Assembly: GCA_945882415.1 (NCBI GenBank)
Contig: CAMCWC010000011.1
Span: forward strand, 62,001-126,000
From: Chthonomonas calidirosea
Lineage (GTDB): Bacteria; Armatimonadota; Fimbriimonadia; Fimbriimonadales; Fimbriimonadaceae
DNA length: 64,000 nucleotides
Direction of reading: 5' to 3'
Every line of letters starts with the position of its first letter. Position 1 is the stretch's first letter. Position numbers and translations under genes: made by a program. Below the pieces are notes generated by a model, which did not search any database, was not told the DNA's origin, and worked only from the letters and a program-made list of their open reading frames with translations. Shown here in pieces: positions 168-25,200 of this stretch.

Positions 168-1406
168 ATGACAACTCAACCTGAACCGATCTCGCCAACG
201 CGTTCCCTGCCGGTCCGTCCCGACCTCGACCAACTGCGACGCCAAGCCAAAGAACTTCTCGCGCAATTCAAGATCGGCGACCTAACTGCCCGGGAAGAAT
301 TTGCCCAGTTCCATCCACGACCACGAGAGGGAGCGCCAAAGCTCTCAGACGCCCAAGTTGTGCTTGCCCGAAGTTACGGCGTCCCGAGTTGGAGCCGCCT
401 TGTTCAAGCCTGCCAATTGATCGATGCCATCTGGAACGACGACTTGCCAGCCCTTTTGGACCTTATAACAAAGCACCCAACTTTGCTTCAACAGCCTGCC
501 TTGGTGACCGAACGAAACTGGGGGCGACCTATGGCCTATGCGGCGAACCTTGGCCGAAACGAGATCATCGCAAAACTGCACTCTCTCGGCGCGGTCGACT
601 TACAACACGCGTTTGAGCGAGCTTGCCTCCGCGGACAACTTGAAACCGCTCGCCTACTGCACCAGCTGGGTGCGCGGCCAGCCGAAGACTCCATCCTTGG
701 ACCGTGCGAAACCCTCAATGCCGACGGACTCGCGCTACTCCTCGAGCTCGGCGCGCCCGTGTCAGATCCGAAAGCCGCCATCGCGCTGGTCCTACAAACC
801 TACAGCCGAAACGCTGATGGCAAGCATCGTTGCCTCGCCTTGCTTGAATCTATAAGCGAGCCGCTTCCGGACACGCCAACCATGGCGCTTCATCGTGGCC
901 GCCTTGATCTTTTGCAGGCTCACCTCGCCAAAACTCCAGCTCTGTTCAAGCAGCAGTTTTCCTACGAAGAGATCTACCCACCATCACTCGGTTGCGACAC
1001 GGACCACAACCTTGCGCTCCACGGCTCACCGCTCGCGAATGGAACTCTTCTTCACCTTTGCGTGGACTACGACGAATTCGAAATCGCGAAGTGGATTCTG
1101 GAAAATGGTGGCGACCCGAACGCGACATCTGGCTATGACGAGGACGGCTTTGGGGGGCAGACCGCCCTCTTCGGCGCCGTCATTTCTCAGCCATTCCGAG
1201 TTGGCGTCCAAGGTCATGAACGGTTTGCCGAGCTGCTCTTGAAACACGGCGCAGACACTTCGATCCGGGCTTCCTTGCGAAAGAGCCTCCGATTCGTCGC
1301 CGACGAATCGACCCACGAGTACAGAAATGTAACGGCCCTCGAGTTCGGGCAGCAGTTTCACGATCAAGACTGGGTGAATCCAAAGGTGATGCGCCTTCTC
1401 GCCTAA
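168..1406 (+). CDS. Ankyrin-repeat protein
   Basis: A 412-residue protein without signal peptide, so probably cytosolic. Residues 18-80 form a helical N-terminal module ending in the 'YGVPSWSRLV' motif, which precedes ankyrin repeats in many soil-bacterial proteins. Ankyrin-like helix pairs are visible around residues 85-200 and most clearly at 285-365, for example 'GTLLHLCVDYDEFEIAKWIL' and 'FAELLLKHGAD'. Such repeats bind proteins; the partner is unknown. The ATG has a GGAG Shine-Dalgarno sequence at 158-161, 6 nt upstream. The next gene starts within 90 bp on the same strand. Confidence 0.85.
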   Translation: MTTQPEPISPTRSLPVRPDLDQLRRQAKELLAQFKIGDLTAREEFAQFHPRPREGAPKLSDAQVVLARSYGVPSWSRLVQACQLIDAIWNDDLPALLDLITKHPTLLQQPALVTERNWGRPMAYAANLGRNEIIAKLHSLGAVDLQHAFERACLRGQLETARLLHQLGARPAEDSILGPCETLNADGLALLLELGAPVSDPKAAIALVLQTYSRNADGKHRCLALLESISEPLPDTPTMALHRGRLDLLQAHLAKTPALFKQQFSYEEIYPPSLGCDTDHNLALHGSPLANGTLLHLCVDYDEFEIAKWILENGGDPNATSGYDEDGFGGQTALFGAVISQPFRVGVQGHERFAELLLKHGADTSIRASLRKSLRFVADESTHEYRNVTALEFGQQFHDQDWVNPKVMRLLA

Positions 1407-1474
1407 AGCCGATGAGCTAGAACAACATCGACGTGCGTCCGAAAACCCCGCACGTCGCTTCGTCCGCAATCGCT

Positions 1475-1480
1475 TACAAT
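1475..1480 (+). promoter_or_regulatory. -10 box of the MmcQ/YjbR gene
   Basis: TACAAT, 9 nt before an in-frame TTG at 1490. The spacing places the transcription start at or next to the start codon. Confidence 0.45.
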
Positions 1481-1489
1481 GCTCCAACC

Positions 1490-1876
1490 TTGACCGACGC
1501 AATCCTTGCCGCCGACCAAATCGCTCGCCCGAAGATCGTCGAGATCGTCTCGTCGTTTCCAGACGGCGCTTGCCTTCCAGCAAACGAGCATCTCAGCTTG
1601 CAAGTCGCCGACAAGCGGTTCGGTTGGTACATGCAAAGTCACCACGGTGACGGCCGGATTGACGTCAACTGCAAAGCCCCGCGCGGGGTTGCCGAAATCC
1701 TCGTCGCTTCTAATCCGCTGCTGTACCACGTGCCTCAATACTTCGGACACCTTGGTTGGATCGGAATCTATCTCGATATCGAAGAAATCCCGTGGGACGA
1801 GGTTCGGGACGTTCTGTTTGAAGCCTACAAACTCTCTGCCCCAAAGAAGCTGTTAAAGGCGCACAACTTCGTCTAA
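1490..1876 (+). CDS. MmcQ/YjbR family protein
   Basis: About 128 residues. The family signature is clear: 'HGDGRIDVNCKAP', then 'PQYFGHLGWIGIYLD' and a final 'APKKLL'. MmcQ/YjbR proteins are small double-wing-like proteins, sometimes called DNA-binding, with no firm function. I chose TTG at 1490 because a TACAAT box lies just upstream and the length matches the family. An in-frame GTG at 1433 would add 19 residues that do not resemble the family. The next gene follows after 13 nt. Confidence 0.75.
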   Translation: MTDAILAADQIARPKIVEIVSSFPDGACLPANEHLSLQVADKRFGWYMQSHHGDGRIDVNCKAPRGVAEILVASNPLLYHVPQYFGHLGWIGIYLDIEEIPWDEVRDVLFEAYKLSAPKKLLKAHNFV

Positions 1877-1889
1877 ACTGAGCCAAATC

Positions 1890-2378
1890 ATGACCATCGA
1901 TCAGTTTTGGCAAATCATCGAAGATGCCCGCGGCAACGCGGCAAAAGTGACCGCTGCACTGCTGCCCTTACCGGCCGAAGAAATCGAGTCCTTCGCGAAT
2001 CTGTACGGTGAGCAGATGAATCTCCTGCATCGCTGGGACATTTGGGGCGCCGCCTATGTTCTGAACGAGGGCTGCAGCGACGACGGCTTCCACTACTTCA
2101 AGGCATTCGTCATCGGCAAAGGTCGCAAGTTCTTCGAACAAGCCGTCCTAGCCCCCGACGATCTAGCACCACTTGTCACCAGCAAAGATCTCAAAAACGG
2201 CTGCGACAACGAAGAATTGAACTACGCCGCCGCCGAAGCCTATGAGAAGGTGGCAAATGCAGACCTAGTCACCGAGGTCGAGTCGCTTGAGGGTACCGAC
2301 CCGGCGGGCGAAGCCTGGGAAGAGGACGAAGTCTACGACCGCTTCCCCAAGCTCGCCGCCCGAGCAGAAGCAGGCTAG
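1890..2378 (+). CDS. DUF4240 family protein
   Basis: 162 residues, cytosolic. The N-terminus 'MTIDQFWQIIEDAR', the central 'LLHRWDIWGAAYVLNEGCSDDGFHYF' and 'YAAAEAYE' near the C-terminus match the DUF4240 family, which has no known role. It probably shares a transcript with the MmcQ gene. Its stop overlaps the stop of the convergent hydrolase gene by 4 nt (CTAG). Confidence 0.75.
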   Translation: MTIDQFWQIIEDARGNAAKVTAALLPLPAEEIESFANLYGEQMNLLHRWDIWGAAYVLNEGCSDDGFHYFKAFVIGKGRKFFEQAVLAPDDLAPLVTSKDLKNGCDNEELNYAAAEAYEKVANADLVTEVESLEGTDPAGEAWEEDEVYDRFPKLAARAEAG

Positions 2379-3733
2379 TCTGCCTTCGCCATTACTTCGC
2401 GGATCCACTCCATCATCATCTTTCCGAACTTCGGATTGAACTTTCCGCGCTGGAAGTTCTGCATGCTCGCCTTCTCTGTCGGGAAGTCGTGGAAGAGGTG
2501 ATCCGATCCGGGAGCGATGACGAACTTGCCGGTTCCCGGCTTCTTGCGATTCATGATGTCGGCAATCAGCTTGTGGTCGGCTTCGTAAACCACGAAGTCG
2601 GCTTCGCCCTTGGCCGCCAACACGTGTGAGTCCAGCTTCGCCCAATACGAGGCAAAGTTAGTCGCCGCCAGCTGGCGCCAAAAGTCGAGCGACTTTCCGT
2701 TGAACAACCCGCCTGGGAAGTAGGCATCTGCCGCCTTCGCAAGCGAAGGATGAGACTTCTTCACTTCTTCGGGACTCTTGTTTTCCAGGAACACCAGCGC
2801 CATTAACCGAGCGCCTTCCCGGGCAGATTCATCGGCATTTTCAAACGTGTCGCCTCCAACAAGCCCCTGGTAGCGAATTGTGTCGAGGATGTACTCAAAC
2901 CAAGTTCTCGCCGCAACGCCGTAAACGGCAAGCCCCTTCACCGGATTCTCCGCCGCAATCATCGGGCCAAACGCGCCTCCCATGCTGTGGCCAAAGATGA
3001 ACACGTTCTTCGTGTCCACCTCTGGCAGAGCCTTGAGCTGCTTCAGGGTTTGCCGATAGATGTCGAGCTCGGTTGTGTAGTCCATCGGAGCAAACGGCCC
3101 ACCTTCGCTGTCCCCAACCCCTGGCTTCTCCACCCGAATCGTCACAAAGCCGCTATTCGCAAAGTCGAAAAGCAGCGGGCCATCCAGCGAGCTCACGTCT
3201 CCAACTGAAGTCTCCAGCACATAGTCATAGGAGATCGGCGAAAAGCCCTGAATGAACATAAAGGCGGGGTAATTGCCTGGCTTTCGAGGCTTCGTGATGA
3301 TCGTTCGCATTCGCGCGCCGTTGCTCACAACATGGCTATAGATCACTTCATAGTTGGCATTGCCTGGGTCTCTCGGCTTCTCTAGCAGCATTGCGCTCAA
3401 GGAGACAGGCTTGGCGTCTCGCAACACTTCGAACTTAACTGGCTTGCTGGTCGGAAGCGATCGAACGAATTCGCCGACCGTCGCCTGCTTCAGGGTTTGA
3501 CCGTTGATCGCGAGAACAACGTCGCCTTCTTGAACTCCGGCTTTCTCCGCGGTTAGGCCAGCCACCGGCTTCCGAGCGAGAAGTCCTTCACCCGCCTTCA
3601 GCTTGAGCTTTGTAACCACATCTGCCGGGATGGGTGAGAACGGCAACCCGAGAGCGCCGCGACGCGGAAGGTCTTGCCCCGAATTCGGGGCTTGAGGGAC
3701 ATGAAGAGCGAGTAACAATCCGAAGGCGATCAT
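2375..3733 (-). CDS. Secreted PDZ-alpha/beta hydrolase
   Basis: 452 residues. A short signal peptide (residues 1-17) is followed by a PDZ-like domain at about 45-118 ('AEKAGVQEGDVVLAINGQ') and an alpha/beta hydrolase domain from about 125 to the end. The nucleophile is Ser250 in 'FGHSMGG', the oxyanion loop is near 'IQGF', and the likely catalytic His lies in the 'GSDHLFHDF' segment near the C-terminus. It is probably an exported esterase or peptidase; the substrate cannot be read from the sequence. It diverges from a PadR regulator across a 17-bp palindrome, so PadR control is likely. Confidence 0.8.
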   Translation of the reverse strand: MIAFGLLLALHVPQAPNSGQDLPRRGALGLPFSPIPADVVTKLKLKAGEGLLARKPVAGLTAEKAGVQEGDVVLAINGQTLKQATVGEFVRSLPTSKPVKFEVLRDAKPVSLSAMLLEKPRDPGNANYEVIYSHVVSNGARMRTIITKPRKPGNYPAFMFIQGFSPISYDYVLETSVGDVSSLDGPLLFDFANSGFVTIRVEKPGVGDSEGGPFAPMDYTTELDIYRQTLKQLKALPEVDTKNVFIFGHSMGGAFGPMIAAENPVKGLAVYGVAARTWFEYILDTIRYQGLVGGDTFENADESAREGARLMALVFLENKSPEEVKKSHPSLAKAADAYFPGGLFNGKSLDFWRQLAATNFASYWAKLDSHVLAAKGEADFVVYEADHKLIADIMNRKKPGTGKFVIAPGSDHLFHDFPTEKASMQNFQRGKFNPKFGKMMMEWIREVMAKAD

Positions 3734-3743
3734 GGGTGAGTCC

Positions 3744-3760
3744 TATTACAAATTGTAATA
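3744..3760. promoter_or_regulatory. 17-bp palindrome, likely PadR operator
   Basis: Perfect inverted repeat TATTACAA-A-TTGTAATA between the divergent hydrolase and PadR genes. It contains TACAAT and TGTAAT hexamers facing the hydrolase gene, so a bound repressor would block that promoter. A separate TATTAT box at 3774-3779 points toward padR. A half-site copy (tcctattacaaat) recurs inside padR at about 3947. PadR proteins usually bind such palindromes next to their own gene. Confidence 0.65.
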
Positions 3761-3815
3761 CCCTGATTCCGCGTATTATAAGTTCCCATTTCTGCAGAAT
3801 TGCTTCAGAGCCCTG

Positions 3816-4412
3816 ATGAAAAAGAAACCGAGCCCGAAAACGCAGCGAAATTTATCCACCATCGAGCTCAGCGTGCTGGGCCTCGCCTGGCTCCGGGGAC
3901 CGTGCACCATCTACGCCATCATGAAGGAGCTCTCGACCTCCGGGTCCTCCTATTACAAATCCCGCGCGGGGACGGCCTACTCGGTCGCGAAGCGACTGTT
4001 GAGCTTCGGACTCCTAGCCGAGACAAGCGAGAACACAATTCAAATCACCGAAGCCGGGGTCACGGCTATTCAGGCTTGGCTGGCGCCACCGATTCCGCTA
4101 CCCGATATCGCTCACTCCGCCGACCTGATTCGACTCCGCTTCTTCTTCGTTGGGATCGTTCCCATGGCCGATCGGCTGGCGTTTATCGATAGCTCCATCG
4201 AGGGACTTACCGAGTTTCTCAAGAAGTGCAAATCCCTTTTGAAGGATAACGAAGATATCGGCGACTACTTCGGGGTACTTGCAACCATGTCAACGGTTCT
4301 AGAAACTGAAGCCCGCATAGCATGGCTACGGATCGTCCGTGACCTTGTAGAAAATCCGATGGCACCGGATGCACCTTGGGCCGAAATCGCACTTGAGAAG
4401 TGCAAGTTCTAG
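3816..4412 (+). CDS. PadR family transcriptional regulator
   Basis: 198 residues. The N-terminal winged helix (residues 15-90) contains 'SVLGLAWLRGPCTIYAIMKEL', a 'YSVAKRLLSFGLL' recognition region and a wing leading to 'ITEAGVTAIQAWL'. The C-terminal half (100-198) is helical, as in PadR proteins that dimerise through a Vir_act_alpha_C domain. PadR proteins are mostly ligand-responsive repressors of an adjacent gene. Here the adjacent divergent gene is the PDZ-hydrolase. The ligand is unknown. Confidence 0.85.
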   Translation: MKKKPSPKTQRNLSTIELSVLGLAWLRGPCTIYAIMKELSTSGSSYYKSRAGTAYSVAKRLLSFGLLAETSENTIQITEAGVTAIQAWLAPPIPLPDIAHSADLIRLRFFFVGIVPMADRLAFIDSSIEGLTEFLKKCKSLLKDNEDIGDYFGVLATMSTVLETEARIAWLRIVRDLVENPMAPDAPWAEIALEKCKF

Positions 4413-4584
4413 CCCCAGAAAGGTTGACCAACTACAGCCATAGTCTAGCGAATAATGGCAAACAGTTCCCCAATTGCCTCATTTCGCCACAAATACTCCT
4501 AAAATTGCTCTCAAATGTGATGTTTCTCTAACAGTCGGAGTAGCTTGAAGTCAGGCGGCCAATTCTGGCTGCAGGAAACCACTC

Positions 4585-4788
4585 ATGAATTGGAACATCA
4601 TCGAAGGAAAATGGAAGGAAATGTCAGGATCACTTAAGGAAAAGTGGAGCGACCTTACCGACGACGAAATCGGCCAACTAGACGGCAAGCGCGAGCAGTT
4701 TGAAGGCTTGCTTCAGAAGAAGTACGGCCTTACCCAGGAAGCCGCTCAGAAGCAGGTTGATGACTGGAGTGAAAAGCTTAAAGACTAA
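4585..4788 (+). CDS. CsbD family small protein
   Basis: 67 residues with the CsbD pattern: 'NIIEGKWKEMSGSLKEKWSDLTDDEIGQLDGKREQFEGLLQ' then 'YGLTQEAAQKQVDDW'. CsbD-like proteins are charged, helical, abundant stress proteins of unknown mechanism. An AGGAAA Shine-Dalgarno-like stretch lies upstream. A 5-bp GC hairpin at 4797-4810 (GGCCC/GGGCC) follows the stop but has no T-run. The 172-bp gap before the gene shows no clear promoter. The BON lipoprotein gene follows, suggesting a shared envelope or osmotic stress role. Confidence 0.85.
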   Translation: MNWNIIEGKWKEMSGSLKEKWSDLTDDEIGQLDGKREQFEGLLQKKYGLTQEAAQKQVDDWSEKLKD

Positions 4789-4852
4789 AGCGAAACGGCC
4801 CTAACGGGCCACTTCACCGCCCACCTCTGTTGCAACTCTTAACCCCAACCGT

Positions 4853-5242
4853 ATGAAATTTACTGCACTCGCCATTCTCGCCGCTCTGTTCATTATCGGA
4901 TGCGGAAACACCGCTGACGGCATGAAGGAAGACTCTGCCGACAATCGACAGAAAGCCGCCGACTCCACCGAAAACGTGGTCGAGGGAGCAAAGAACGCCG
5001 GAGCCGCTTTTGGCGCCGCGACGATGCTCACACCCAAAGTCAAAGTTGCCCTCGAGGCCGACAAACGACTCGCCGATCCAGCAAACCTGATCGATGTTGA
5101 TTCGACCGACGACATGGTCACCCTCAGCGGGCACGTCAAAACTTCTGCTCTCAAAGAGCTCGCTACCGAAATCACCCAGAAGGTGATCACCGAAGCGGGA
5201 TCCAAGCAGAAGATCGAAAATAAGCTCGAAGTCAAGAGCTAA
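4853..5242 (+). CDS. BON-domain lipoprotein
   Basis: 129 residues. A lipoprotein signal peptide ends with Cys17 in 'FIIGC'. Residues 25-60 are Ala-rich and helical. A BON domain covers about 65-128 ('VKVALEADKRLADPANLIDVDSTDDMVTLSGHV'). BON domains bind phospholipid surfaces in OsmY-like and secretin-associated proteins, so the protein probably sits on a membrane face. Only one BON copy is present, whereas OsmY has two. An intrinsic terminator follows. Confidence 0.85.
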   Translation: MKFTALAILAALFIIGCGNTADGMKEDSADNRQKAADSTENVVEGAKNAGAAFGAATMLTPKVKVALEADKRLADPANLIDVDSTDDMVTLSGHVKTSALKELATEITQKVITEAGSKQKIENKLEVKS

Positions 5243-5252
5243 CCTACGCAGC

Positions 5253-5290
5253 TTTCACCCAAGTCTAAAAATCTGGGGTGAAAGTTTTTT
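5253..5290 (+). terminator. Intrinsic terminator after the BON gene
   Basis: TTTCACCC pairs with GGGTGAAA, with extra pairs inside the loop, and six T follow at 5285-5290. Confidence 0.85.
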
Positions 5291-5321
5291 CATTTGGCGA
5301 ATAAATGTCGCGCCGCCTGCG

Positions 5322-5327
5322 TACATT
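5322..5327 (+). promoter_or_regulatory. -10 box of the YceI gene
   Basis: TACATT, 5 nt before ATG 5333. This leaves no room for a leader, so the mRNA is probably leaderless. Confidence 0.6.
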
Positions 5328-5332
5328 CCGGC

Positions 5333-5959
5333 ATGCGTTCCGCTTGGCTCGTGCTTGTTCCCATTTCCGCCCTCCTCATTGCAGCCGTTCCGCAGAGTAA
5401 AGACGCGATCGCGTTCGACCTGGATGACCCTAAGGGCGTTACCGGAATGACCATCGGAATCGACGCACCACTAGAGCCCGTCCGAGGATTCGCCGGCGGG
5501 ATCACCGGCAACCTACTTCTGAATCTGAAGGATCCTAAGAAGTCAACGGGCAAAATCGTCGTGGCCGCCGACAGCACCGAACTCGGCCGCAAGAACATGA
5601 CCGGCGCCATGCACCAAAGCTGGTGCCTCGATGTCAAAAAATATCCAACGATCGAGTTTTCGGTTAAGGAAGTTTTAGAAGTTAAAAAGGGTGAGGGAGA
5701 TACTTACACGGCAAAGGTTGCTGGCGACTTCCTCTTCCACGGAGTCACAAAGCCGCTTACCGTGGATGCGACCGTGAAGTACCTCCCAGGCAAGTTGAAG
5801 GCACGAGGTGGCGTCGAGAAAGACGGAGACATCGTTCAGGTCTACAGCAAATTCTCCGTAAATCGACTTGACTTTGATGTTGCTCCCGACCTTAGCACCG
5901 ACCTCATCGGCAACAAAATCGACATCGACCTTGCCGTAACTGGAATCGCCGTCCGATGA
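5333..5959 (+). CDS. YceI family periplasmic protein
   Basis: 208 residues. Residues 1-19 form a signal peptide ('MRSAWLVLVPISALLIAAV'). The rest is a lipocalin-like YceI barrel with 'NMTGAMHQSWCLDVKKYPTIEFSVKEV', 'GDFLFHGVTKPLTVDATV' and 'FSVNRLDFDV'. YceI proteins bind polyisoprenoid or amphiphilic ligands. ATG 5333 is preferred over an upstream in-frame TTG because the signal peptide begins there and TACATT lies 5 nt before it. The next gene overlaps by 4 nt (ATGA). Confidence 0.85.
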   Translation: MRSAWLVLVPISALLIAAVPQSKDAIAFDLDDPKGVTGMTIGIDAPLEPVRGFAGGITGNLLLNLKDPKKSTGKIVVAADSTELGRKNMTGAMHQSWCLDVKKYPTIEFSVKEVLEVKKGEGDTYTAKVAGDFLFHGVTKPLTVDATVKYLPGKLKARGGVEKDGDIVQVYSKFSVNRLDFDVAPDLSTDLIGNKIDIDLAVTGIAVR

Positions 5960-6480
5960 TCGCGACCCTAGTCCTCACCCTCGCAATGCAGACCCCTGGT
6001 CTCGCGGTCGGAGACGAAGTTGCGCCTTTCGAACCGTACTGGGTCTCGGGACCATACACCGATACGAGACAATGCCCGGTTTGCGAGTACGGAATCATGC
6101 CTCTTGTGATTGTGTGGTCGCAACTGAAGTCCCCAGACAAGCTCAAGCCGATTCTCGCGGGCATAAACGAAACCGTCGGCCAAGCACCGAACGGTCGACA
6201 GAAGGCGTTCCTCGTGGACTTGAACGAAACCGCGGGCGACGAGAAATCCCGAAAGGAACTCAAGGCATTAGCCGAAGCGTGGAAGCTTCCAAAAGTCTTC
6301 TTTATGAGCCGAGTGTTCAGCACAAAGGCAGTTCAAAAGGACTACAAACTCCAGCCATATTCGGACTGGGAAACCATCGTCTACGTGGCCAAAAACCGCC
6401 TCGTGACGGCAAAGTTCGTCAATCCAAATCCCGGCGACTTGAAGCAGATTCAGGAAGCAATTCGCGCAACAACTAAGTAA
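5956..6480 (+). CDS. Exported thioredoxin-like protein
   Basis: 174 residues with a short signal peptide (1-17). A C40-P-V-C43 pair sits in 'TRQCPVCEYG', and later segments 'KAFLVDLNET', 'LPKVFFMSRV' and 'WETIVYVAKNRLVTAKFVN' fit the strands of a thioredoxin fold. CPVC is not a standard Trx or DsbA active site, so a redox or metal-binding role is only likely. The 4-nt overlap with the YceI gene indicates co-expression. Confidence 0.6.
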   Translation: MIATLVLTLAMQTPGLAVGDEVAPFEPYWVSGPYTDTRQCPVCEYGIMPLVIVWSQLKSPDKLKPILAGINETVGQAPNGRQKAFLVDLNETAGDEKSRKELKALAEAWKLPKVFFMSRVFSTKAVQKDYKLQPYSDWETIVYVAKNRLVTAKFVNPNPGDLKQIQEAIRATTK

Positions 6481-6489
6481 GGCCGGTCC

Positions 6490-6975
6490 TTACCGAAGCA
6501 AGCCGATAAGGACGATGAGCACGGCAATCCCAATCAGGATAAACAACGTCCGCTGGGATTGCTCTCGCTCTCTTCTCAACTCTTCTGCGCTTTGCTTCGG
6601 CCGGCGTGGCAGTTCGAGTTGCGGGCGATTTCGCTCCATGAGTTCCCGGACCGACCGCAGTTTCAACAACGGGTTCGCGTCTCGCCGCAGTTCTGGACTC
6701 GTCCGCTCCACGCGGTAAAGCGGCTCTTCGAGCTCGCGCATCACGCCAACCAGCCTCGCCTCAATGTCCTGCCGTCGCATATCTGCAAGCTCGGCGGCCA
6801 CAAAATTCGGCTCTAACCCAAGCGCTTCGGCAACATCCTCAACCGTAACCACATCACGGTGCCGCTCCGAAAACGAGTCGCCGTCGGCAGAAAAGTTCTC
6901 AAGTCGAACAAGAAGGTCGCGGAGTTCGGTATCGCTTTCAAGCTCACCGTGAAGTAACTCTTCCCCGCTTTCCAT
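6490..6975 (-). CDS. Tail-anchored membrane protein, unknown
   Basis: 161 residues. The N-terminal half contains a short helix-turn-helix-like stretch, 'VTVEDVAEALGLEPNFVAAEL' (about 43-63). The middle is charged and helical. A single membrane helix ends the protein ('TLFILIGIAVLIVLIGLL'). It therefore looks tail-anchored with the bulk in the cytoplasm. The same N-terminal motif occurs in the membrane protein at 9401-10120. A TAACGT box lies 15 nt before the ATG. Function unknown. Confidence 0.6.
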   Translation of the reverse strand: MESGEELLHGELESDTELRDLLVRLENFSADGDSFSERHRDVVTVEDVAEALGLEPNFVAAELADMRRQDIEARLVGVMRELEEPLYRVERTSPELRRDANPLLKLRSVRELMERNRPQLELPRRPKQSAEELRREREQSQRTLFILIGIAVLIVLIGLLR

Positions 6976-7024
6976 AAACTCAGTTCAAATACGTTACCGG
7001 TCGAGTTGGGTTACCAAAATGTTT

Positions 7025-20356: not shown

Positions 20357-21211
20357 TTAGCCGTCGATTTCTTTGATGATCCGGTTGAGAAGGTCGCGGT
20401 CGTAGGCGTCCATCTTGTTCGCCAGCTTCTTCTCCGGCTCCGCCTCGGCAGGACGTCCATCTCGGTCCAACATGATCGCGAGAAAACCTCGGTAAATCAA
20501 CTTATCCGGATCAAGGTCGCTCGCCAGCCGAATAGCTTTCACGGCCTCGATGACCTTCTTCGCGCGCCAGAAGGCAACCGCCGCTCGAAGATAGAGGTGA
20601 TCATCGCCCGGCGAAAGCTCAATCGCCGCGCGATACGACTCAAGGGCTTCGTCCACCCTCCCCGTTCGAGCAAGCAACTCCGCCGTCCAGAAGTGATAGA
20701 ACGACTCGTCTGGCTTCAGCGCGATGGCATATTGGATTGCCTGCAGCGCACGCTTCTTTTCACCGAGCTCGGCCAACGTTTCGGCGAGCTTGAAGTGGTT
20801 CTGCGGCTGCTCGGGTTCAAGGTCAATTGCCCGTTGCAGGTGCTCGATGGCGTCGCGATATCGGCCGTACCGCTTGCAGATGACGCCCAGACCAAGATGC
20901 GGCTCCGCCGACTCCTTAATCCGCAAGGCGCGCTCAAAGTTCTTGTACGCCGCAGGCAACTCATCGCCGAAGGTCAGCGCGTCTGCGAGGTCCAGCAGGT
21001 GGGTCGGATCATCTGCATCGCGTTGTTCGGCGGCGCGACGGAAGTGCTTGACGGCGGCATCGTAGTCGCCATCGTTCAGGCACTGCTGCCCGAGCTCACG
21101 CGATTCGGCGGCGTCTTTGCCCTCCTTATTCCGGCGCTGAATTCCCTCTTCGGTCAGCTCGCCTTGAGGCTGGTGGAAGAGGTCGAAAATGACCTTCATC
21201 GAAGGATCCAT
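20357..21211 (-). CDS. TPR-repeat protein
   Basis: 284 residues, cytosolic. After an N-terminal helix (about 1-40, 'DLFHQPQGELTEEGIQRRNKEGKDAAESRELGQQ') at least five TPR units run from about 40 to 230, for example 'GDYDAAVKHFRRAAEQRDADDP', 'GRYRDAIEHLQRAIDLEPEQP' and 'GRVDEALESYRAAIELSPGDD'. TPRs are protein-binding scaffolds. The ATG overlaps the TAA of the upstream 616-residue gene (TAATG), so both are translated from one mRNA. Confidence 0.8.
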   Translation of the reverse strand: MDPSMKVIFDLFHQPQGELTEEGIQRRNKEGKDAAESRELGQQCLNDGDYDAAVKHFRRAAEQRDADDPTHLLDLADALTFGDELPAAYKNFERALRIKESAEPHLGLGVICKRYGRYRDAIEHLQRAIDLEPEQPQNHFKLAETLAELGEKKRALQAIQYAIALKPDESFYHFWTAELLARTGRVDEALESYRAAIELSPGDDHLYLRAAVAFWRAKKVIEAVKAIRLASDLDPDKLIYRGFLAIMLDRDGRPAEAEPEKKLANKMDAYDRDLLNRIIKEIDG

Positions 21212-23061
21212 TACTTCCCTCCTATAACGCCGGTGCTCAGGGTCTGGAGCGGACGAATGGTGAGCTGGGCGGGATAGCTACTCCCGGAAAGCGGAATCGT
21301 CATAAGTTCAAATCTCTTTACGTCGTTTCCGAGCAAACGAAACTTCTCGATGCGATATTCAGCCTTTGGTTGCAGCAAAGGGGTCTCTTTCAGAACGCCG
21401 TTAACGAGGAACAACGCCCCCGAGTAGCCCGCCGAAGCCTCGAAGACGAGCTCGATCTCAATCGGCTCGGAGGTCGGATTGATGATCTCGCCGGTGATGT
21501 TGTAGACGACGCCAAAGTTTCCGCTCAGCACGCGCTGGTTGTCGGACCCTGAAATCGGCTTCTCGCCAATCTTAAAGAACTTCCAGTTCTCGCCGAATCG
21601 ATACTGGACCTTCAACTGCTTGTACGGATCGGGGTAGATGTGGTCGGAAAGCTGATACGGAGCCTGGTCGTAATCGTTGATCGGGTTGCAGCCAACCTCG
21701 CGCCAAGGGGTTGTGCTCTCAATTGCGGTTGCCCATCGGCGATCAAGGTTGAAGGGCGGCCAGGAGTCGGTCCGAACAAGCACAGATTCCGGTCCATCAA
21801 TCAGCCGCAGGCTGCACAATCCGGAAACCGTTTCCATGTTGCCAAGACGTCGAAGTGAAATCGGCATCGTGCTTCGCGGCGGAATGGTGACGACATCCCC
21901 ACTACCGGCGGCCCAAGCTTTCATGTACTGCAATCCGGCCTTCAATCCGGCGCGGACCGGATTCTTGTCGGGATCGCTATCTCCAGGAAGGATCAGCACT
22001 CGCGCCGGCAAATCCGAGTCGTTGACCGCTTGAATGCGAATGAACAATGGGAACGAAGCCGTGTTCTGGTGGTGATACAGCAACCGCGCCGGTTCATTCT
22101 TTTTCAGATTCGCGCTAAACAGCGGCCCCGCAGAGTTGACGTTCTCCGGATCGTTGCAGTACCAAAGCGCCGCTTCCTTGATCGGCGCAACCCCAATGTT
22201 GCGAACAACAATGTTGACTTCCCCTTCGTTCTCAAACGCATCTTGCGCGGCGACGCGAATCTTTGCCGTGAATGACTTGCTCGCTCCAAGCCCAATCGAC
22301 TGTTCCGAGAGCGAAAGAATGCGAATCACCGAGCCAGGAACTCGCTGAAGCTGCGTGGTGATCGCTCCTTCGATGGCTCCTCGAATCGTCGACGCGAGGG
22401 CAGGAGAGCCGGAAACCTGCGTGGAAAAGGTCTGCGGAAGGATCGCCGCGTATGGCTGAACCGAAACCTCAATGGATTCGGTGGTCGTCTCGCCTTGGAT
22501 CGTGATGATCGCGTTGCCAGGCTTATTCGCCGCGAGTTTGATGCCACCGGGAACGCGAATCGGCGTCACAACTTCCGACTTCGAAGAAGAAACAGTGGCG
22601 TCCGCGAACTGAAAACCCTTGACCGCGACGATCTTGTTCGAAGGGCACGGCAGGCGGAGAGAGGTTTCCGCAACTTTGAGCGGAGGAGAGACGAAGGCGG
22701 TTCGCAATCTGCCAGACCAAAGCTGGGCGAGGGCGGCGGGGGAAGACTTCTGCGCCTTGGCCTCGTCCGGCGTGATGGTCACAATCCGCTCACCACCGGC
22801 AAAGATCACGTGGGTCTTTTCGACCTTTCGAATCTTCACTTCACCCAAATACGAAAGGCTGTTCAGCGTCGAAGCAATCGTCTCGGCTCGGGCTTCGGGA
22901 GAAGATCCGTCGACGGAGTAAGTCTTGAGTGACAGGATCACCGCGTCGTTAAAGTAAACGACCGAGCCACGGGCTTCTGCCCCGCGCGCTAAGGCGCTTG
23001 CGACGGCGGAAAAGGCGGCTATCAAAAGTATCACAAGCCGGAAAACGCTTCGCATGGGCAC
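21211..23061 (-). CDS. Large exported protein, unknown
   Basis: 616 residues with a signal peptide (about 1-25). No family recognised. Residues 190-215 look like a BACON- or Big-like beta segment ('GGIKLAANKPGNAIITIQGETTTESIEV'), and the C-terminal half is rich in beta strands with acidic, Asn- and Pro-rich loops ('VYNITGEIINPTSEPIEIELVFEASAGYSGALFLVNG'), as in surface or secretion-associated proteins. The GTG start is 5 nt after a TACCCT box that is one arm of a 24-bp inverted repeat shared with an aldehyde dehydrogenase gene. Co-transcribed with the TPR gene. Confidence 0.6.
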   Translation of the reverse strand: MPMRSVFRLVILLIAAFSAVASALARGAEARGSVVYFNDAVILSLKTYSVDGSSPEARAETIASTLNSLSYLGEVKIRKVEKTHVIFAGGERIVTITPDEAKAQKSSPAALAQLWSGRLRTAFVSPPLKVAETSLRLPCPSNKIVAVKGFQFADATVSSSKSEVVTPIRVPGGIKLAANKPGNAIITIQGETTTESIEVSVQPYAAILPQTFSTQVSGSPALASTIRGAIEGAITTQLQRVPGSVIRILSLSEQSIGLGASKSFTAKIRVAAQDAFENEGEVNIVVRNIGVAPIKEAALWYCNDPENVNSAGPLFSANLKKNEPARLLYHHQNTASFPLFIRIQAVNDSDLPARVLILPGDSDPDKNPVRAGLKAGLQYMKAWAAGSGDVVTIPPRSTMPISLRRLGNMETVSGLCSLRLIDGPESVLVRTDSWPPFNLDRRWATAIESTTPWREVGCNPINDYDQAPYQLSDHIYPDPYKQLKVQYRFGENWKFFKIGEKPISGSDNQRVLSGNFGVVYNITGEIINPTSEPIEIELVFEASAGYSGALFLVNGVLKETPLLQPKAEYRIEKFRLLGNDVKRFELMTIPLSGSSYPAQLTIRPLQTLSTGVIGGK

Positions 23062-23064
23062 CGG

Positions 23065-23088
23065 TCAGGGTACCCGCAGGTACCCTGA
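23065..23088. promoter_or_regulatory. Symmetric divergent promoter-palindrome
   Basis: Perfect inverted repeat with 10-bp arms TCAGGGTACC and GGTACCCTGA around a cgca spacer. Each arm contains the same -10 hexamer TACCCT facing outward: 23072-23067 for the 616-residue gene (5 nt to its GTG) and 23081-23086 for the dehydrogenase (9 nt to its ATG). The repeat is thus both a pair of -10 boxes and a plausible operator. Confidence 0.7.
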
Positions 23089-23095
23089 AAACAGC

Positions 23096-24592
23096 ATGAA
23101 TCCGGTAACCGCTCGGAACTATATCAACGGCGAATGGCGAAACGCGACTGACGTATTTGAAAGCGTCAATCCTGCCAATCGAAACGAAATCATTGGTACT
23201 GCCCCCAACAGCACGGCACAAGATGTCGACGACGCAGTAGCCGCCGCCGAACACGCTTTCAAAACCTGGCGAGAACTCAGCTGGGTCAAGCGAGCCGAAA
23301 TCATCGACAACTTCGCTCAACTCATCAAGCGCGACGTTGAAGAAATCGCGGTTCTCGTCACCCGAGAGTGCGGAAAGCCAATCAACGAAGGCCGCGCCGA
23401 CGCGGTGGAAGCTCTCCACATGGCCCAGTACATCGCTGGCCTTGGCCGACTGCCACATGGCTACGCGGTGAGCTCAGAAATTTCCGCCAAGGACGCTTAC
23501 ATTCTGCGAAAGCCAAAGGGTGTCGTCGCCTGTATCACGCCTTGGAACTTCCCTTCGGCCATTCCGCTTTGGCTGGTTCTCCCCGCCGTTCTCGCAGGCA
23601 ACACCGTTGTCTTCAAGCCGGCCGAGCAGACGCCTATTTGTGGGCACAAGCTCATGGAGCTCTTCCATGAAGCCGGATTCCCTGCGGGCGTCATCAACCT
23701 CGTTCACGGATTTGGCGAGCCAGTGGGTGATCCGCTGGTCAAGCACAAAGCCGTTGACGCCGTTCTCTTTACGGGTTCGCGCGCAGTTGGCAAGTACATC
23801 CAGCAAGTTGCTGCAAACGACCTCTTCAAGTTCGCCGCGACCGAAATGGGCGGCAAGAACGCCACGATCGTTCTCGAAGATGCTGACCTTGAACTCGCGA
23901 TCAACGCTTGCGTTCTCGGTGCCTTCAAGACTTCCGGACAGCGCTGCGTCTCGACCAGCCGAATCATCATCGACAAGAAGATCGAAGCGGAATTCACCGC
24001 GCGATACGTTGAGAAGGTCAAGCGAATCCGAGTCGGTGATGGCCTCAACCCAGACGTCTTCATGGGCCCACTCATTGAGGCCGGTGCCATCGACAAGTGG
24101 CAGCACCACAATGCCAAGGCTAAGGAAGAAGGCGCTCAGGTCCTCGTTGACGGTCAGGTCCTGACGGAAGGCGAGCACGCGAACGGCAACTTCGTTTCTC
24201 CGTTCGTATATCGATTCGACGGCTACAAGAAGAACACCTTCTGCCTCCGGGAAGAAGCCTTCAGCCCGCACGTTGGGATCATTCCGATCGACGGTCTCGA
24301 AGAAGCGGTTGAGGTCTACAACGACACCGATTACGGCCTTGCGATGGCCGTAATAACCGAGGACTACCGAAAGTGGCGCTACGTTCGTGACCATGCCGAT
24401 TACGGCCTCGGTTACGTGAACCTGCCTAGCATCGGTGCCGAAGTCCACTTGCCGTTTGGCGGAGTTAAGGCTTCCGGTAATGGACATCCTGGCGCAGAGG
24501 GCATCCTCGAGTCGGTCACCCACCGCGTTGCATTTACGGTCAATCACGCCCGAGAAATCGTGATGGCGCAAGGTCTTACGACCAACATCTGA
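23096..24592 (+). CDS. NAD(P)-dependent aldehyde dehydrogenase
   Basis: 498 residues, cytosolic. ALDH fold with the motifs 'ITPWNFPSAIPLW', 'FTGSRAVGKYIQQVA', the catalytic Glu in 'ATEMGGKNATIV' and the catalytic Cys in 'TSGQRCVSTSRI', then 'REEAFSPHVGI' and 'LPFGGVKASGNG'. It oxidises an aldehyde to the acid; similarity in style to ketoglutarate-semialdehyde and ALDH7-type enzymes is not enough to name the substrate. ATG 23096 is preferred to an in-frame start 42 nt upstream because it follows the TACCCT box and begins the usual N-terminus. Confidence 0.9.
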   Translation: MNPVTARNYINGEWRNATDVFESVNPANRNEIIGTAPNSTAQDVDDAVAAAEHAFKTWRELSWVKRAEIIDNFAQLIKRDVEEIAVLVTRECGKPINEGRADAVEALHMAQYIAGLGRLPHGYAVSSEISAKDAYILRKPKGVVACITPWNFPSAIPLWLVLPAVLAGNTVVFKPAEQTPICGHKLMELFHEAGFPAGVINLVHGFGEPVGDPLVKHKAVDAVLFTGSRAVGKYIQQVAANDLFKFAATEMGGKNATIVLEDADLELAINACVLGAFKTSGQRCVSTSRIIIDKKIEAEFTARYVEKVKRIRVGDGLNPDVFMGPLIEAGAIDKWQHHNAKAKEEGAQVLVDGQVLTEGEHANGNFVSPFVYRFDGYKKNTFCLREEAFSPHVGIIPIDGLEEAVEVYNDTDYGLAMAVITEDYRKWRYVRDHADYGLGYVNLPSIGAEVHLPFGGVKASGNGHPGAEGILESVTHRVAFTVNHAREIVMAQGLTTNI

Positions 24593-24634: not shown

Positions 24635-24663
24635 TTGGCAAGATCGCCGATAGCTGGTATAGT
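24635..24663 (+). promoter_or_regulatory. Sigma-70 promoter of the RNA-binding protein
   Basis: TTGGCA (24635-24640), 17 bp, TATAGT (24658-24663). Near consensus. It predicts a transcription start near 24670 and a leader of about 110 nt, which is long for this window. Confidence 0.8.
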
Positions 24664-24783
24664 GCGCATGTCGCCGGCGATTGCGATTCATGAGTTTTGT
24701 CTTCTATTCCATAGGTAGCAAGGTCACGTTCGAGTTCGCAAGAAAATTTGATTGGTGGGCGACCCGATCAAGGATTAATGGAA

Positions 24784-25194
24784 ATGGAGACTAAAACCCT
24801 ATTCGTGGGCAACTTGCCCTACTCGCTGACCGAGCAGCACCTTCTCGACCTGTTTGCACCATACAACGCAAGCAAGGCTCGCATCGTCGAAGGACGAGGC
24901 TTTGGCTTCGTTGACGTTGCAGGCGACATGGCCGACAAGGCTATCGAAGACAAGGACGGCTCCGAAGCCGGTGGCCGACGCATGAACGTCAACCTCGCCC
25001 GACCTAAGGGTGAAGGCGGCGGTGGCGGCGGCGGTCGAGACTTCGGCGGCGGTGGCGGCGGCGGTGGTCGCAGCTTCGGCGGCGGTGGTGGCGGCTATGG
25101 CGGCGGCGGTGGTCGCGGCGGTAGCGGCGGCGGCGGCGGTCGTGGTGGCAGCAGCGGCGGCGGCGCAGGTCGCGGCGGCTTCAAGCGCTACTGA
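24784..25194 (+). CDS. Glycine-rich RRM RNA-binding protein
   Basis: 136 residues. One RRM (residues 1-80) has RNP2 'LFVGNL' and RNP1 'RGFGFVDV'. The C-terminal 55 residues are almost all Gly with Arg, Ser, Phe and Tyr (RGG-type tail), encoded by a repetitive GGC/GGT tract at about 25015-25185. Such proteins in cyanobacteria and other phyla act as cold-induced RNA chaperones. ATG 24784 has an AAGGA Shine-Dalgarno 9 nt upstream; ATG 24778 is possible. The long leader may regulate translation by temperature. Confidence 0.85.
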   Translation: METKTLFVGNLPYSLTEQHLLDLFAPYNASKARIVEGRGFGFVDVAGDMADKAIEDKDGSEAGGRRMNVNLARPKGEGGGGGGGRDFGGGGGGGGRSFGGGGGGYGGGGGRGGSGGGGGRGGSSGGGAGRGGFKRY

Positions 25195-25200
25195 TACTCA

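Follow-up and report, generated by a model that had tools for sequence, protein, structure and literature searches.

Leaderless promoters of Deinococcus-Thermus and Actinobacteria place a TANNNT motif a few nucleotides from the start codon, lack a Shine-Dalgarno (SD) sequence and serve a sizeable minority of genes (PMC3160421, PMC12340547). A TANNNT about 6-12 bp ahead of the start is their signal; Zheng et al. read the start-adjacent pattern as marking leaderless genes (PMC3160421), and in D. radiodurans the ORF-adjacent TANNNT acts as a -10 region, its commonest form being TACACT about 6-7 bp from the ORF (Zhong et al., PMC12340547). Bidirectional promoters, described by Warman, Grainger and colleagues, carry a symmetric -10 in which opposed -10 elements share a short region where mutual exclusion of polymerases is expected, and they are defined by divergent transcription starts 7-25 bp apart (PMC12825309, PMC10268837). 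A spacing of 23 bp is common among them, and in E. coli little competition occurs at basal activity while activation of one side represses the opposite RNA (PMC12825309). Palindromic operators, finally, have symmetric arms that span two divergent promoters. We characterized a locus that resembles all three systems. It lies in a Fimbriimonadaceae (Armatimonadota) MAG of 3.36 Mb in 38 contigs, within the 64,000-nt stretch of DNA that was analysed as a whole and is called the window here. The features of the locus are as follows.

20357-21211, minus strand: gene for a TPR-repeat protein, the start codon of which overlaps the end of the exported-protein gene
21211-23055, minus strand: gene for an exported protein of 614 aa (616 aa if started at GTG 23061)
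23060-23061, minus strand: predicted transcription start of the exported-protein gene, placed from the position of the box; the mRNA would be leaderless at GTG 23061 or have a leader of about 5 nt to ATG 23055
23065-23074, minus strand: left arm of the repeat, reading GGTACCCTGA on this strand; putative extended -10 element of the exported-protein and TPR genes (hexamer 23072-23067)
23079-23088, plus strand: right arm of the repeat, reading GGTACCCTGA; putative extended -10 element of the aldehyde dehydrogenase gene (hexamer 23081-23086)
23092-23093, plus strand: predicted transcription start of the aldehyde dehydrogenase gene, placed from the position of the box; the leader would be about 3-4 nt long and holds no SD motif
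23096-24592, plus strand: gene for an aldehyde dehydrogenase (ALDH) of 498 aa (PF00171), to residue 1 of which relatives align

Transcription starts were predicted 6-7 nt past the -10 box, following the spacing rule of PMC12825309. A longer ALDH ORF, starting at 23054, probably does not represent the gene, as the alignments with relatives begin at ATG 23096. The exported protein gave no Pfam or NCBIfam match. Its predicted structure is mostly beta strand (mean pLDDT 89.7), and a fold search with this model returned nothing convincing, with TM-scores below 0.25. It is present in 67 of the 85 family genomes searched, its named relatives being Fimbriimonadaceae/Armatimonadota MAGs; close ALDH orthologues were found in 27. 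The TPR gene presumably forms one transcription unit with the exported-protein gene.

The inverted repeat at 23065-23088 reads TCAGGGTACC-CGCA-GGTACCCTGA, with 10-bp arms that are perfectly complementary and flank a 4-nt centre. Each arm holds an outward-pointing TACCCT (23081-23086 on the plus strand, 23072-23067 on the minus strand); the hexamers are 8 bp and the arm centres 14 bp apart. On the plus strand 9 nt separate the hexamer from the ALDH ATG, and on the minus strand the distance is 5 nt to GTG 23061 or 11 nt to ATG 23055. The coordinates and symmetry given by an earlier, sequence-only reading, with distances of 9 nt to an ATG and 5 nt to a GTG, are correct. Based on the analysis below, the repeat very probably represents two back-to-back extended -10 promoters of the ordinary housekeeping type (GGTANNNT); neither has a recognisable -35, and each would start a leaderless or near-leaderless mRNA.

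The repeat exceeds what base composition would yield by chance in the 64-kb window and is no composition artefact. A first-order Markov model predicts 0-1 perfect repeats of this geometry (10-bp arms, 4-nt loop) in 464 kb, comprising the window and 20 stretches of 20 kb and amounting to ~14% of the genome, which was also the sample for all gene statistics. The real 464 kb yielded 127 counts for arms of at least 10 and loops of 3-12, one hairpin being tallied under several loop lengths, and many of these sites resemble intergenic hairpins or terminators. That the present repeat likewise acts as an RNA or DNA hairpin, be it attenuator, terminator or cruciform, is nevertheless extremely improbable. 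The hairpin is strong (-10.8 kcal/mol as DNA, z -3.3), but it lacks a T-run, a terminator scan of the region called one unrelated site only, and Rfam matched nothing in the window except a tRNA elsewhere. Further, transcripts from its own promoters would not include the repeat, both predicted starts being downstream of it.

Much of the symmetry arises because both boxes fit one consensus, GGTANNNT, with a self-complementary GGTACC core. Identity of the arms at all 10 positions has a probability of ~1.4e-4 by position weights and was observed in 3 of 2080 box pairs, meaning that random pairs would match at all ten positions about once per 700 to 7000. The full ten-position match is not fully explained by the shared consensus and leaves room for an extra cause, either selection for symmetry or local copying. 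Inverted GGTA pairs as such are not enriched, since TACC-N2-8-GGTA occurs at 119 places in the whole genome compared with 292 in the reversed control.

We determined how often boxes of this type precede genes, using ORFs called by a simple home-made codon-usage caller. TANNNT was found 4-13 nt ahead of the start codon in 64 of the 233 genes with upstream room, compared with 25 genes at each of two control distances of equal width (24-33 nt and 34-43 nt). The two positions preceding the motif are G at frequencies of 0.51 and 0.49, where the background is 0.28, and the form with GG before TANNNT, GGTANNNT, occurred 17 times near starts and twice in the control. Box and SD motif co-occurred in 3 genes, while 61 had the box only, 30 the SD only and 139 neither, which is rarer co-occurrence than expected by chance (Fisher p=0.011). 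In case of the window, both TACCCT boxes fall within the distance of about 5-13 nt that marks a TANNNT as a leaderless-type -10 promoter, and no SD motif (GGAG/GAGG/AGGA) is present in GAAAACAGC-ATG or GACCGGTGCCC-ATG, the sequences ahead of the two starts. A scan of the region for the sigma-70 consensus (TTGACA/TATAAT) gave no match. Compact divergent pairs with back-to-back, outward TANNNT boxes are also present at two other loci of the same genome (L083:17697-17735 and L092:17697-17732), where the boxes are 10-11 nt apart and no perfect palindrome is formed.

A genome-wide count gave seven exact matches to the 10-mer GGTACCCTGA, namely the two arms and five unpaired copies. Four of the five lie 6-9 nt ahead of the ATG of long, clear ORFs. 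Judged by eye from their N-termini, we take these ORFs to encode an enzyme of the 3-hydroxyisobutyrate-dehydrogenase type, CarB, MtnA and a flavoprotein; the fifth copy presumably lies inside 16S rRNA, an assignment made by reading the sequence. None of the lone arms has a mirror copy, as the palindrome pattern is unique in the genome. Since it stands alone ahead of four genes, the most plausible reading of one arm is that of a self-sufficient promoter element; the palindrome would then consist of two such putative elements pointing outward.

A comparison of 15 genomes in which both genes are divergent neighbours, the relatives being mostly MAG assemblies, is in good agreement with this assignment. 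An outward TANNNT box, nearly always of the form GGTANNNT, precedes each gene in all 15 orthologous pairs, while the NNN positions vary freely among relatives (TAAACT, TAGAAT, TATCCT, TAATCT and others) and the two boxes are identical to each other only in the window, G014 and G011. The gap between the hexamers is 8 nt in the window and in its nearest sister G014, -2 in G011, 25 in G022 and G080, 40-85 nt in nine genomes and 186 nt in G008. Further, GGTANNNT is found within 25 nt of a possible start in 20 of the 24 ALDH orthologues examined, including genomes where the exported-protein gene is located elsewhere, such as G012 with GGTACCCT 7 nt ahead of the ATG. In these genomes, the box follows the gene and not the gene pair. 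The proposal that both TACCCT hexamers are -10 boxes has thus held up, based on the genome-wide occurrence of GGTANNNT ahead of starts and on its presence at both genes in every divergent pair, and the assignment of the window boxes as leaderless-type -10 promoters is supported by these sequence comparisons. As in Deinococcus-Thermus and Actinobacteria, TANNNT lies a few nucleotides from the start without an SD and precedes a sizeable minority of genes. Unlike in those systems, the host belongs to the Armatimonadota, there is a preference for G-G just ahead of TANNNT, and the promoters are putative ones, predicted from sequence.

The same data bear on the function that had been suggested for the symmetry, namely that a protein dimer bound to the repeat would block both genes at once and thereby tie the exported-protein and TPR genes to the aldehyde dehydrogenase. 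A dimeric transcription factor that represses both genes from the 24-bp palindrome would suit the perfect 10-bp symmetric arms, which have centres 14 bp apart and cover both -10 boxes, and the palindrome is unchanged in G014. We consider such an operator highly unlikely. The sequence-only reading had itself suggested a search for the repeat elsewhere in the genome, and no second copy of the 24-mer was found at up to 3 mismatches. A search of 61 related genomes that allowed up to 2 mismatches returned near-copies no more often than a reversed control did, and of these only the one in G014 lies at this junction. The arm is used singly ahead of four unrelated genes. It had also been set out beforehand that loss of the repeat with retention of the boxes in sister species would speak against the proposal, and this is the pattern observed beyond the nearest sister: the repeat is present in the window and G014 and absent from the other 13 orthologous pairs, where the boxes persist. 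Neighbouring genes include those for an anthranilate synthase component, an aconitase-C protein, TPR, ALDH and RRM proteins and an ETF; among those neighbours between 17.8 and 30 kb that were scanned, none is a recognisable DNA-binding regulator. A tie between the two genes by way of an operator is further countered by the ALDH orthologues that keep the box, several of them with the partner gene elsewhere. In sum, while the repeat resembles palindromic operators in having symmetric arms over two divergent promoters, it differs from them in being a single genomic copy, in having arms that serve individually as putative promoter boxes, in losing its symmetry in relatives and in lacking a recognised regulator nearby. 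The palindrome was found neither at other targets nor, beyond G014, conserved at the junction. There is no sign of a binding site for a dedicated regulator, and the dimer-operator reading is not supported.

Alternatively, the symmetry itself could have been selected to create a true two-way promoter, entered in either orientation, with transcription of one gene limiting that of the other. G014 has the 40-bp region without any change, and with predicted starts 33 bp apart the two polymerase footprints should overlap. This distance, predicted for both the window and G014, is however outside the 7-25 bp that define bidirectional promoters, and the boxes are 25-186 nt apart in most orthologues, so that coupling is not a conserved property. 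The little competition at basal bidirectional promoters of E. coli (PMC12825309) also counts against mutual limitation. Overall, a two-way promoter of this kind is unlikely. The strongest case for it comes from G011 (L036). In this relative one perfect palindrome of 14 bp, GAAGGGTACCCTTC, is found about 20 nt ahead of the ATG of the ALDH gene and contains the ALDH box, which can be read on either strand. The starts predicted from it are 23 bp apart, and the exported-protein gene would then have a leader of some 40 nt that includes a GGAG ahead of the ATG. Although only one genome, G011 is the best argument that two-way reading may matter in the clade. In line with bidirectional promoters, the window has opposed -10 elements in a short region where polymerase exclusion would be expected, but unlike them it has separate hexamers 8 bp apart and no shared -10; among the relatives, only G011 fits the shared-element geometry. 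On geometric grounds, the symmetry of the window could also serve a promoter that chooses its direction, a reading that stays hypothetical. The fuller version of this reading has a similarly slim chance of being correct: a selected, palindromic, leaderless two-way promoter, in which a single polymerase site would force a choice between ALDH and the envelope-protein operon, and which would derive from, or be the source of, the single self-complementary -10 of the G011 type.

Conservation between the window and G014 is high around the two starts. The whole 40-bp intergenic region is unchanged, while 4-fold sites in the flanking genes are only 44-57% identical, and the stretch without a difference extends over 207 bp (22993-23199), spanning both starts and reaching 63-104 nt into the coding regions. 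We dropped an explanation of this block as palindrome-specific constraint, because the window has further blocks of identity and its gene starts are in general better conserved. Since the block reaches well into both genes, the start region has been constrained or exchanged, and the palindrome is not singled out. Across the whole window (compared with L106-L109), third-codon identity to G014 is 0.82 for codons 1-10, 0.68 for codons 11-20 and about 0.58 after codon 40, which suggests constraint on 5' coding sequence, perhaps tied to leaderless initiation. As a separate observation, the gene for the RRM RNA-binding protein together with about 124 nt upstream (24654-25196) shows 2 mismatches in 543 bp, with a third-codon identity of 0.99 compared with about 0.58 elsewhere. 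Such near-identity points to either a recent exchange or very strong constraint, and could reflect a region for control at the RNA level.

Returning to two back-to-back promoters as the preferred reading, the primary sigma factor would recognise each extended -10 separately and on its own strand, one promoter serving the aldehyde dehydrogenase and the other the exported protein and the TPR gene. The resulting mRNAs would be leaderless or carry leaders of 3-5 nt and would presumably undergo leaderless translation. Each -10 would lie within the upstream contact region of the other promoter, and on geometric grounds one polymerase at a time would be accommodated. This overlap of footprints probably has little effect at low activity, and by analogy with the bidirectional promoters of E. 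coli, basal non-competition and repression upon activation of the opposite side may apply here as well. The mirror symmetry is that of two largely self-complementary boxes, for which a dimeric regulator is not required.

In conclusion, the locus neatly shows how two putative leaderless-type promoters can be packed into the 40 bp between two start codons. It also illustrates that a perfect palindrome spanning divergent starts is not by itself the mark of an operator, since two copies of a promoter box with a self-complementary core produce the same picture. A limited literature search returned no earlier report of ORF-adjacent GGTANNNT promoters in Fimbriimonadaceae. The present analysis provides sequence evidence that members of this family of Armatimonadota use ORF-adjacent GGTANNNT boxes as promoters at a sizeable share of their genes.
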